From NCBI GenBank assembly GCA_012798695.1, contig JAAZMR010000101.1, positions 1 through 64,000 on the forward strand: a stretch of 64,000 bases of DNA, written 5' to 3'. Of the stretch, positions 3,438 to 5,743 are shown in pieces. The position numbers were made by a program, and so were the translations under genes. The stretch is from Bacillota bacterium (lineage in GTDB: Bacteria > Bacillota > Limnochordia > DTU087). How positions within the stretch are numbered: the first letter of the stretch is position 1; each line of letters starts with the position of its first letter. The notes beneath the pieces are model-generated. The model saw only the letters and a program-made list of their open reading frames with translations, was not told the origin of the DNA and made no database searches.

Positions 3438-4325
3438 TTATTTCCTCACTTCAACATTCGCTAACTTCTCATAGAACTGAATCAGCCCTCCATGATCCTC
3501 TTTAGCCTTACCATCGACCTTCAGAGCCTGCATAATCTCCAAAACCTGACTAGATAAGGGCAAGGGCACTCCCACAGTATGAGCTGTATCCAGTGCGTTC
3601 AGCAGATCCTTAATATGCAGCTCTATGCGGAAGCCTGGCTCAAAGTTGCCTTCCATGACCAGCGGCATTTTAGCATCCAAGACAGTACTGCCGGCCAACC
3701 CTCCTCGGATCGCCTGAAAAACCTTTTCTGGATCAGTACCCGCCTTGACAGCCAATACCATGGCCTCTGACATAGCCGCTATGTTCAAAGCCACAATGAT
3801 CTGGTTCGCTAGCTTAGTGACATTGCCACTACCGATCTCCCCTACCAAGATGGCTGATGAACCCATATGCAGGAGAATATCTCTTACTTTGGCAAAGACA
3901 TCCTGTGGGCCACCGACCATGATCGCCAGGGTCCCATCAATGGCTTTAGGTTCTCCACCACTTACAGGGGCATCGAGCATAACCACTCCCTGCTTGGCTA
4001 GCTCCTTGGCTATCTCTTGTGAAGCTATAGGAGAAATGGAACTCATATCGATCACAATAGTCCCCGGCTGGGCGCCTTCCGCCACTCCGTTTGCACCTAA
4101 TACTACTTCCTTGACTTCTGGCGAATTGGGCAGCATGGTAATCACAATTTCGCTTTTTGTGGCAACATCTTTGCTGGAACGACCCGCCATTGCCCCACAA
4201 TCTACCAGTTCCTCGACAGCCTCTTGGTTGATGTCATAGACTATCAGCGGGTATCCGGCTTTCAGCAAGTTCTTCGCCATAGGTTTGCCCATAATGCCGA
4301 GTCCAATGAATCCAATCGTTTGCAT
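3438..4325 (-). CDS. NAD(P)-dependent beta-hydroxyacid dehydrogenase (2-hydroxy-3-oxopropionate reductase/3-hydroxyisobutyrate dehydrogenase family)
   Basis: This is a cytoplasmic oxidoreductase of the beta-hydroxyacid dehydrogenase family. It most resembles GarR/GlxR tartronate semialdehyde reductase, which makes glycerate. The 295-residue length is typical. The N-terminal dinucleotide-binding motif is GFIGLGIMGKPMAKNL. The substrate loop reads DAPVSGGEPKAIDGTLAIMVGG. The catalytic-lysine region is GSGNVTKLANQIIVALNIAAMSEA, and the C-terminal part carries the family's KDLLNAL segment. The start has a GGGAGG ribosome binding site. It lies downstream of kbl on the same strand with no clear minus-strand terminator between them, so it may be read as part of the gntR-tdh-kbl operon. 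That would place it in glycine or serine-type C2/C3 metabolism. 3-hydroxyisobutyrate dehydrogenase is the main alternative. Confidence 0.9.
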   Translation of the reverse strand: MQTIGFIGLGIMGKPMAKNLLKAGYPLIVYDINQEAVEELVDCGAMAGRSSKDVATKSEIVITMLPNSPEVKEVVLGANGVAEGAQPGTIVIDMSSISPIASQEIAKELAKQGVVMLDAPVSGGEPKAIDGTLAIMVGGPQDVFAKVRDILLHMGSSAILVGEIGSGNVTKLANQIIVALNIAAMSEAMVLAVKAGTDPEKVFQAIRGGLAGSTVLDAKMPLVMEGNFEPGFRIELHIKDLLNALDTAHTVGVPLPLSSQVLEIMQALKVDGKAKEDHGGLIQFYEKLANVEVRK

Positions 4326-4360: not shown

Positions 4361-4389
4361 TTGACTGTTACTGCCAACTACCCTATAAT
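4361..4389 (+). promoter_or_regulatory. Sigma-A/sigma-70 promoter facing right in the garR-kbl gap
   Basis: TTGACT at 4361-4366 and TATAAT at 4384-4389 are separated by exactly 17 bp: 5 of 6 and 6 of 6 matches to consensus. No protein gene on the + strand lies downstream before the strong terminator at 4460-4487. The -10 element lies in a near-palindrome (CCTATAATATAGG), so it may also serve the opposite strand. Confidence 0.7.
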
Positions 4390-4395
4390 ATAGGT

Positions 4396-4487
4396 AGTAA
4401 ATAATACTTGGCATGAGATACCATCTAGGAATGTATGCTTTCTCCTTCCTATTACCTAACCCGCCGCAACCCCGGCGGGCTTTTTTT
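4396..4487 (+). ncRNA. Candidate intergenic small RNA, about 92 nt
   Basis: A near-consensus promoter (4361-4389) and an intrinsic terminator (4460-4487) bracket about 92 nt with no convincing reading frame; the one ATG-led frame (ATG at 4413) lacks a ribosome binding site. The unpaired part just before the terminator stem is pyrimidine-rich: CTCCTTCCT at 4442-4450. This is a perfect 9-nt complement of the kbl Shine-Dalgarno (AGGAAGGAG, opposite strand of 5698-5706). The layout, a C/U-rich seed followed by a GC hairpin and U run, is that of several Firmicute trans-acting small RNAs. The transcript would also be antisense to any kbl-to-dehydrogenase readthrough mRNA. Expression is inferred, not shown. 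Confidence 0.55.
4460..4487 (+). terminator. Strong intrinsic terminator on + strand
   Basis: A 7-bp all-GC stem (4460-4466 with 4473-4479), a 6-nt loop and a run of seven T (4481-4487). The T run is on the + strand, so it does not terminate the flanking minus-strand genes; it fits the candidate small RNA. Confidence 0.8.
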
Positions 4488-4506: not shown

Positions 4507-5688
4507 CTACTCAATGAGGCCCATAGCCTTCCCTACAGTCTCAAAAGCCTTAATGCCATAATCAAGATCTTTCTGACTATGGCTGGCAGAGACCATGACC
4601 CGGATGCGAGCTTTGCCTCGAGGAACCGTTGGGAAACCGATAGATTGGGCAAAGACCTTTTCATTAAAGAGCCGGTGGCTAAACTCGGCTGCCTTCGCCG
4701 CTTCCCCGATCATGACTGGAGTAATGGGTGTCTCACTCTTCCCGATATCAAAGCCTAGTTCTTGCATGTGCTGTTTAAAATAACGGGCATTATCCCAGAG
4801 TTTGGTCACCAACTCATCATCATCGTCCAGGATCTTGACAGCTTCGATACAAGCTGCCACATCCGCCGGTGTGACCGCGGAGCTAAAGAGAAATGGCCGC
4901 CCCCGCTGGGACAGATACTCAATCAACTCTTTAGCTCCCGCTACATAGCCACCTACCACACCTAAGGCTTTGGAGAGTGTCCCTACTTCAACATCAACTC
5001 GGCCATGCAAACCAAAATGGTCTACTATACCCCGGCCATTAGAACCCAAAACTCCCTCTCCATGGGCATCGTCCACCATGGTCATCGCACCATATCGCTC
5101 AGCCAATTCGACAATGGCAGGCAGGGGTGCCAAATCCCCATCCATGCTGAAAACGCCATCAGTAATGATCAATTTCTTACCTGTTGTCGGCTCCTGCAGG
5201 CGTTCTTCCAGACTTTCCATATCACAGTGCTCATAGACCTTGATCCCAGCTCGGCTGAGCCTGCACCCATCGATAATACTGGCATGATTGAGGCTATCAC
5301 TGTAGATGGTATCATCTTTACCCACCAATGCTCCAATCACAGCTAGATTAGCGGTAAAACCGGACTGAAAGGAGATCACGGCAGGCACCTGTTTGAACTT
5401 AGCTAAGGCAGCTTCTAGTTGCCGATGCAAGATCATGGTCCCTGCGATCGTCCTTACTGCTCCCGGTCCCACCCCATACTGCTCAATAGCCTTTCTAGCT
5501 GCTTGTTTTAGCCGTGGGTCCGCGGCCAATCCCAGATAATTATTAGAACAGAAATTGAGCATGGACTCACCATTGATCGTCACCCAAGCTCCCTGGGGGC
5601 CCTCCAATGTACGTATGGAATTATATAGTCCATCTTGCTTCAAAGACTCCAATTCTTCCTTGACAAAACTCAATGGCTTGCTCAACAT
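4507..5688 (-). CDS. kbl: Glycine C-acetyltransferase (2-amino-3-ketobutyrate CoA ligase)
   Basis: This enzyme cleaves 2-amino-3-ketobutyrate with CoA to glycine and acetyl-CoA, the second step of threonine breakdown after Tdh. It is a PLP-dependent enzyme of the alpha-oxoamine synthase family; the 393-residue length is normal. Visible motifs are [10 protein letters not shown] near the N terminus, [12 protein letters not shown], the PLP-contact segment [12 protein letters not shown], and GTLSKALG, whose Lys (residue 240) should bind PLP. The pattern is closest to Bacillus Kbl ([26 protein letters not shown]). I chose the ATG at 5688 because AAGGAG sits 9 nt upstream; an earlier ATG at 5709 overlaps that ribosome binding site. 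The order gntR-tdh-kbl and shared strand indicate one operon. Confidence 0.96.
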
Positions 5689-5743
5689 GATTCGACACTC
5701 CTTCCTCATCTCACCTGGTCTTCAGACTGAGCGACTATTCCTG

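Follow-up and report, generated by a model that had tools for sequence, protein, structure and literature searches.

A conserved small RNA in a Limnochordia family with predicted pairing to the leader of the primary sigma factor gene rpoD

A predicted small RNA gene opposite to its neighbours

The window analysed here is a stretch of 64,000 nucleotides from the genome of a Bacillota bacterium of the class Limnochordia. Two minus-strand genes, encoding a 2-hydroxy-3-oxopropionate reductase (3438-4325) and Kbl (4507-5688, with its ATG at 5688), flank a candidate small RNA (sRNA) gene on the plus strand; genes for a sugar ABC transporter permease and binding protein lie upstream of it, also on the plus strand. 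The sRNA promoter (4361-4389, plus strand) consists of a -35 element, TTGACT (4361-4366), a 17-bp spacer and a -10 element, TATAAT (4384-4389). It matches 11 of 12 consensus letters and is the best sigma-70 type site within the surrounding 2 kb. Because the -10 position places the expected start at about 4396 and the terminator T-run extends to 4487, the predicted transcript is ~92 nt long (4396-4487, plus strand). It ends in an intrinsic terminator (4460-4487, plus strand) composed of a 7-bp GC stem-loop, CCCGCCG-CAACCC-CGGCGGG (4460-4479), followed by a C and seven T (4481-4487). Each of these elements, and their orientation opposite to both neighbours, had been proposed in an initial annotation made from the letters alone, and each is present.

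The conserved 5' domain of the RNA, around ACCATCTAGGAATGTATGCTTTCTCCTTCCT, spans 4419-4450 (plus strand) and overlaps the pairing segment, or seed, UGCUUUCUCCUUCCUAUUACCUAA (4436-4459, plus strand), which is complementary to the leader of rpoD. Within the seed lies an anti-Shine-Dalgarno stretch, CTCCTTCCT (4442-4450, plus strand). The RNA is predicted to be mostly unstructured, with a CU-rich seed that is mostly single-stranded. In the consensus fold, UAGGAA in the 5' domain can pair with UUCCUA, forming a stem that may hide part of the seed and in this way gate it; the consensus fold of the sRNA homologues contains no covariation in this stem. An Rfam scan of the window returns no match at gathering scores, including none to 6S RNA.

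The initial annotation found no credible reading frame in the RNA, and we concur. The ATGs at the conserved AGGAATGTATG might suggest a short mRNA for a small protein, but both frames that they open read through the terminator into unconserved sequence, the conserved block lacks synonymous-type variation, and one of the sRNA-bearing relatives (G002) does not possess these ATGs. The probability of a small-protein mRNA is therefore close to nil.

An inverted repeat, ACTACC-N10-GGTAGT (window 4377-4398), spans both the sRNA -10 element and the divergent promoter region of the reductase gene (3438-4325). It is not preserved as such in relatives.

Conservation of the small RNA within the family

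A DNA search of relatives identifies a single copy of the sRNA in each of eight other family genomes, which together with the window's own genome (G000) span five genera. A covariance model likewise recovers single-copy homologues in nine of the eleven family genomes and finds no significant homologue in 62 further genomes of the class outside the family. Weak blastn matches were inspected as possible extra homologues and dismissed, and a viral contig collection contains no match to the 24-nt seed.

TTGAC and TATAAT are invariant in all nine homologues and their flanks differ; the spacer and the first 20-30 nt of the RNA are variable, and the alignment contains no conserved block upstream of the -35 element. 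A block of ~67 nt reaching to the terminator, ACCATCTAGGAATGTATGCTTTCTCCTTCCTATTACCTAACCCGCCGCARCCCCGGCGGGCTTTTT, is the same in eight genomes apart from a single loop base and differences in T-run length, and 24 nt (4438-4461) are identical in all nine. The exception is G002, where the 5' half of the sRNA, including the 5' domain, has diverged, while the 24 nt CTTTCTCCTTCCTATTACCTAACC and the terminator are retained, the latter with a compensatory change of a G-C to an A-U pair; the terminator is kept in every homologue. In the adjacent kbl, third codon positions show just 45-53% identity between G000 and G004, G001 and G002, so the identity of the ~67-nt block goes far beyond neutral expectation.

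The genomic context of the sRNA is more fluid. A sugar-binding-protein gene and then kbl adjoin it in G002, a different binding-protein gene is its neighbour in G004, and in genus g6, where kbl is elsewhere, it has a sugar-binding-protein gene on one side and a chemotaxis-receptor gene on the other. Since the neighbours change and the sequence is kept, the sRNA behaves as a stand-alone element whose direction is set by its own promoter and T-run. These observations also bear on the idea that there is no sRNA here and that the hairpin, which sits just past kbl in a region flanking the minus-strand reductase gene on its 5' side, is a terminator or cis-element of one of these genes, belonging either to the kbl 3' end or to the leader of the 3438-4325 gene. 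Against it, the T-run follows the hairpin on the plus strand only, the plus-strand promoter is conserved in all nine genomes, and the g6 copy adjoins neither gene, making a cis-element highly improbable.

Conservation of the gene, its promoter and its terminator is a direct computational observation, as is the conserved complementarity to rpoD described below. Loss of promoter and hairpin in close relatives, which would have spoken against a small regulatory RNA, was checked, and both are retained. With promoter, body and terminator all preserved in eight additional genomes, the sRNA signals represent more than chance, and there is strong support for the earlier claim of a small regulatory RNA: the 92-nt stretch is very probably a real regulatory RNA encoded by a conserved gene. 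As expected of a trans-acting base-pairing sRNA, it combines its own promoter and an intrinsic terminator, independent of neighbours, with an unstructured seed that is conserved together with the target site it complements.

Complementarity to the kbl ribosome binding site

The target initially proposed was kbl, and with it threonine catabolism. The complementarity on which this rested is real: over 9 nt, CTCCTTCCT can pair with the Shine-Dalgarno sequence AGGAAGGAG before the kbl ATG (5698-5706, minus strand), and the sRNA and kbl are adjacent in G000, G001, G002 and G004. By itself, this match is weak evidence. Anti-Shine-Dalgarno matches are common, as had been cautioned from the start, with AGGAAGGAG occurring in 3 and GGAAGGAG in 10 of 1,234 initiation regions of the window's genome. 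Conservation of the seed match, which had been suggested as a check, is lacking at kbl. The kbl ribosome sites read AAAAGGAGAGGAG in G004, AGAAGGAAGGGAG in G001, AAAGATAAGGGG in G002 and GAGGAAAGGGGG in G005; complementarity is not conserved in G004, G002 and G005, and of the genomes read only the window's own has the 9-nt match, whereas the sRNA motif is invariant. Moreover, kbl ranks only 77th (duplex energy) or 167th (cofold binding) among the 1,234 initiation regions, stands apart from the sRNA in g6, and is present in both family members without the sRNA. Regulation of kbl and threonine catabolism is thus very unlikely. The broader suggestion of other GGAGG-led messages fares better, in that it pointed in the right direction; the match that is conserved is the one to the long Shine-Dalgarno region of rpoD.

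Complementarity to the rpoD leader

Potential targets were ranked across 1,234 initiation regions, drawn with a simple start-codon choice from 1.45 of the 2.68 Mb (~54%) of the window's genome. The first rank by two energy measures (duplex -32.3 kcal/mol, cofold -30.6) goes to rpoD, the primary sigma factor gene, whose product is identified as RpoD by NCBIfam (664 bits against a cut-off of 572). Independently, the seed's reverse complement, used as a search pattern, matched the leader of rpoD in G010. In most relatives, G-U pairs allowed, the invariant sRNA segment GCUUUCUCCUUCCUAUUACCU can form a helix of 22-24 contiguous pairs with AGGUAAUGGGAAGGGGGGAGC, a site that spans the rpoD Shine-Dalgarno. 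The leader of the window's genome reads TTCAGGTAATGGGAAGGGGGGGAGCGCG-gtg; G004, G007, G008 and G009 share AGGTAATGGGAAGGGGGGAGCGCG, and the corresponding sequence is GGGTAATGG.. in G001, AGGTGATGG.. in G005 and AGGTAATAGG.. in G010. With sRNA UGCUUUCUCCUUCCUAUUACCU(AA), uninterrupted helices of 22-24 bp form on the leaders of G001, G004, G005, G007, G008 and G009, and G010 has an equivalent perfect site. A seventh G in the window's genome leaves 19 bp plus a one-G bulge, and one broken pair in G002 brings the run down to 16. The helix spans the Shine-Dalgarno and stops 2-5 nt before the GTG start.

Throughout the 26 Mb of the eleven family genomes, a zero-mismatch pairing-compatible 20-mer is confined to two loci, the sRNA itself and rpoD; seven of the nine sRNA-bearing genomes have it at rpoD. 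Upstream of the G-run, the rpoD site shows four substitutions, three of which preserve pairing (A-to-G in G005, A-to-G in G001 and G-to-A in G010, all opposite U); compensatory sRNA-mRNA changes do not occur because the seed never varies. Seeds shuffled with dinucleotides kept served as a control. On the eight rpoD leaders tested, shuffled seeds form helices of 8.9 bp on average (maximum 14.75 in 400), compared with 21.6 for the true seed. Within the window's genome, one of 60 trials with shuffled seeds yields a 19-bp helix in some part of the 1,234 regions, so that the case for rpoD rests on conservation across species: the match is modest in the window's genome alone and strong across species.

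Part of this complementarity has a more general origin. Outside the family, rpoD leaders keep the purine Shine-Dalgarno GGAAGGGGGGA, lack the AGGUAAU part and pair over 9-13 bp. With a long purine Shine-Dalgarno present class-wide, any CU-rich RNA pairs with about half of the rpoD site. In genus g4, which lacks the sRNA, pairing runs with the rpoD leader measure 17 and 15 bp, and the leader of one of its genomes, G006, still pairs with one mismatch at -33 kcal/mol, indicating that part of the match reflects shared ancestry. The protein tree places g4 next to G002 (support 0.91), which suggests that the sRNA was lost in g4.

Such considerations could favour a global CU-rich sRNA resembling RoxS/RsaE or S17/bdhR1, which would act on many Shine-Dalgarnos and on rpoD as one of them because of its long purine stretch. 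The seed is nearly an anti-Shine-Dalgarno and forms helices of 12-16 bp at many initiation regions, and a precedent exists in Bordetella S17, in which one segment is fully conserved and for which there are 70 candidate targets, at or close to ribosome binding sites (PMC11722255). However, the true seed matches no more initiation regions of the window's genome than its shuffles do (678 against 504-702 regions at or below -16 kcal/mol). The conserved seed also runs 7-8 nt past what Shine-Dalgarno pairing needs (AUUACCU), an extension that finds its complement at rpoD. The family genomes contain no further perfect 20-mer site, and the match at tyrS is not conserved. A global regulator is consequently a rather unlikely account, albeit one to be taken seriously.

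The tyrS gene was considered as a target in its own right for its 12-nt perfect match, AGGAGAAAGCAT, in the window's genome, and was rejected as non-conserved; a search for further targets with a short 5'-domain pattern was too unspecific. A separate sequence before tyrS, GGGTGGTACCGCGGGAGCCTCTCGTCCCT (L355-L364), resembles a T-box leader. In G005, a large-protein gene (L274:11391-13254, G005:C13) contains an 18-bp run of potential pairing, G-U allowed, with AGGGAGGAGAAAGCGUGC on the 5' side of the sRNA seed.

The rpoD leader has further features. An unusually long purine Shine-Dalgarno (GGAAGGGGGGA or close) precedes rpoD in most class genomes read (L295 to L324), far outside the sRNA-bearing family too. 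In nearly all family genomes, a second ribosome-site-like AAGGGG-N7-GTG lies ~45 nt before the rpoD start (L295-L303, L323). The upstream ORF that it opens stops, in G000, G004, G007 and G009, with a TGA that overlaps the GTG of rpoD, and in most others it overlaps out of frame; translational coupling between this ORF and rpoD is possible. We considered the ORF as the cause of leader conservation and rejected it, as the frame over AGGTAATGGG and the ORF end vary by genome. Since the reading frame differs between genomes, amino-acid constraint fails to explain why the rpoD leader is conserved.

Relationship to known regulatory RNAs

RoxS/RsaE, FsrA and CsfG are C-rich sRNAs of Bacillota, and RoxS pairs with the ppnKB Shine-Dalgarno (PMC8216469). 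Like these, the RNA described here is short and has a pyrimidine-rich single-stranded region suited to Shine-Dalgarno pairing. Unlike them, it carries the motif CUUUCUCCUUCCUAUUACCU rather than C-rich repeats, its predicted main target is rpoD, and no ResD or Rex control is known for it; the RsaE/RoxS family is absent among Rfam matches up to an E value of 10. RF02278 (bdhR1), a betaproteobacterial toxic sRNA, and S17 similarly have a UCUCCU segment followed by a terminator, and a fully conserved segment covering ribosome binding sites (PMC11722255), but the hairpin that encloses the motif in RF02278 is absent from our RNA and deleted in the alignment, which scores 23.6 bits against a gathering threshold of 50, mostly from the terminator. 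The suhB/mmgR family (RF00519) resembles it in a UCCUCCCU-like segment ahead of the terminator hairpin and differs in a 5' hairpin for which the sRNA has no counterpart; the match reaches 17 bits against a gathering threshold of 41, again mainly from the terminator.

RNA control of the transcription machinery is also known from 6S RNA, Ms1 and CoRP, structured RNAs of ~160 to >500 nt that bind RNA polymerase (PMC11077062). In contrast, the present RNA is ~92 nt long, mostly unstructured and predicted to pair with rpoD mRNA. Its fold is different from that of 6S RNA, defined by a long helix with a central bubble, a length of ~160-200 nt and an Rfam match. Closer in mode of action are DsrA, RprA and OxyS, which act on the mRNA of rpoS, an alternative sigma factor. 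These RNAs likewise exert base-pairing control over sigma factor translation, whereas the predicted target here is the primary sigma factor. No sRNA acting on a primary sigma factor mRNA was found in the literature searched, which excludes most subscription journals, and rpoD figures as a reference gene in two of the retrieved papers. The sRNA is a new family of a known kind, outside Rfam, with an apparently unreported target.

A model for control of primary sigma factor synthesis

The conserved complementarity makes it probable that the sRNA acts in trans, pairing with the rpoD leader and blocking rpoD translation. In this model, transcription of the ~92-nt RNA would be driven by a sigma-A type promoter of its own and stopped by the intrinsic terminator, and the RNA's CU-rich segment (4436-4459) would base-pair with the rpoD mRNA leader over ~16-24 bp. 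As the pairing covers the rpoD Shine-Dalgarno to within a few nucleotides (2-5) of the GTG, ribosome binding would be expected to be blocked and synthesis of the primary sigma factor lowered, perhaps followed by mRNA decay. We infer expression of the sRNA, its pairing in the cell and the resulting repression from these computed features.

Negative feedback, in which a sigma-A-driven sRNA holds sigma-A in balance, is speculative; it would be the simplest circuit, given that the sRNA promoter is near-consensus for sigma-A and nothing is conserved upstream of the -35 element. More tentatively still, one may picture a family-wide homeostatic loop in which the sRNA transcribed by sigma-A RNA polymerase shuts off sigma-A translation through a near-antisense duplex of ~22 bp, so that RNA pairing sets the level of the primary sigma factor, and in which one genus first lost the sRNA and then saw the matching portion of its rpoD leader decay. 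This extended scenario is conceivable, and we would not be surprised to see it fail.

To our knowledge, the RNAs described so far as adjusting the transcription machinery do so by binding the polymerase or by acting on messages for alternative sigma factors. If the model holds, an sRNA directed at the primary sigma factor would place growth-wide transcription under a simple RNA switch. Although the hosts are uncultured, pairing with rpoD is testable because the duplex is long and conserved. For a Bacillota lineage represented solely by metagenome-assembled genomes, the RNA also provides a concrete sRNA family that Rfam lacks.

All nine genomes that carry the sRNA encode Hfq, a candidate partner. 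Within genus g4, no Hfq is detected in G003, and its sister G006, likewise without the sRNA, encodes Hfq.
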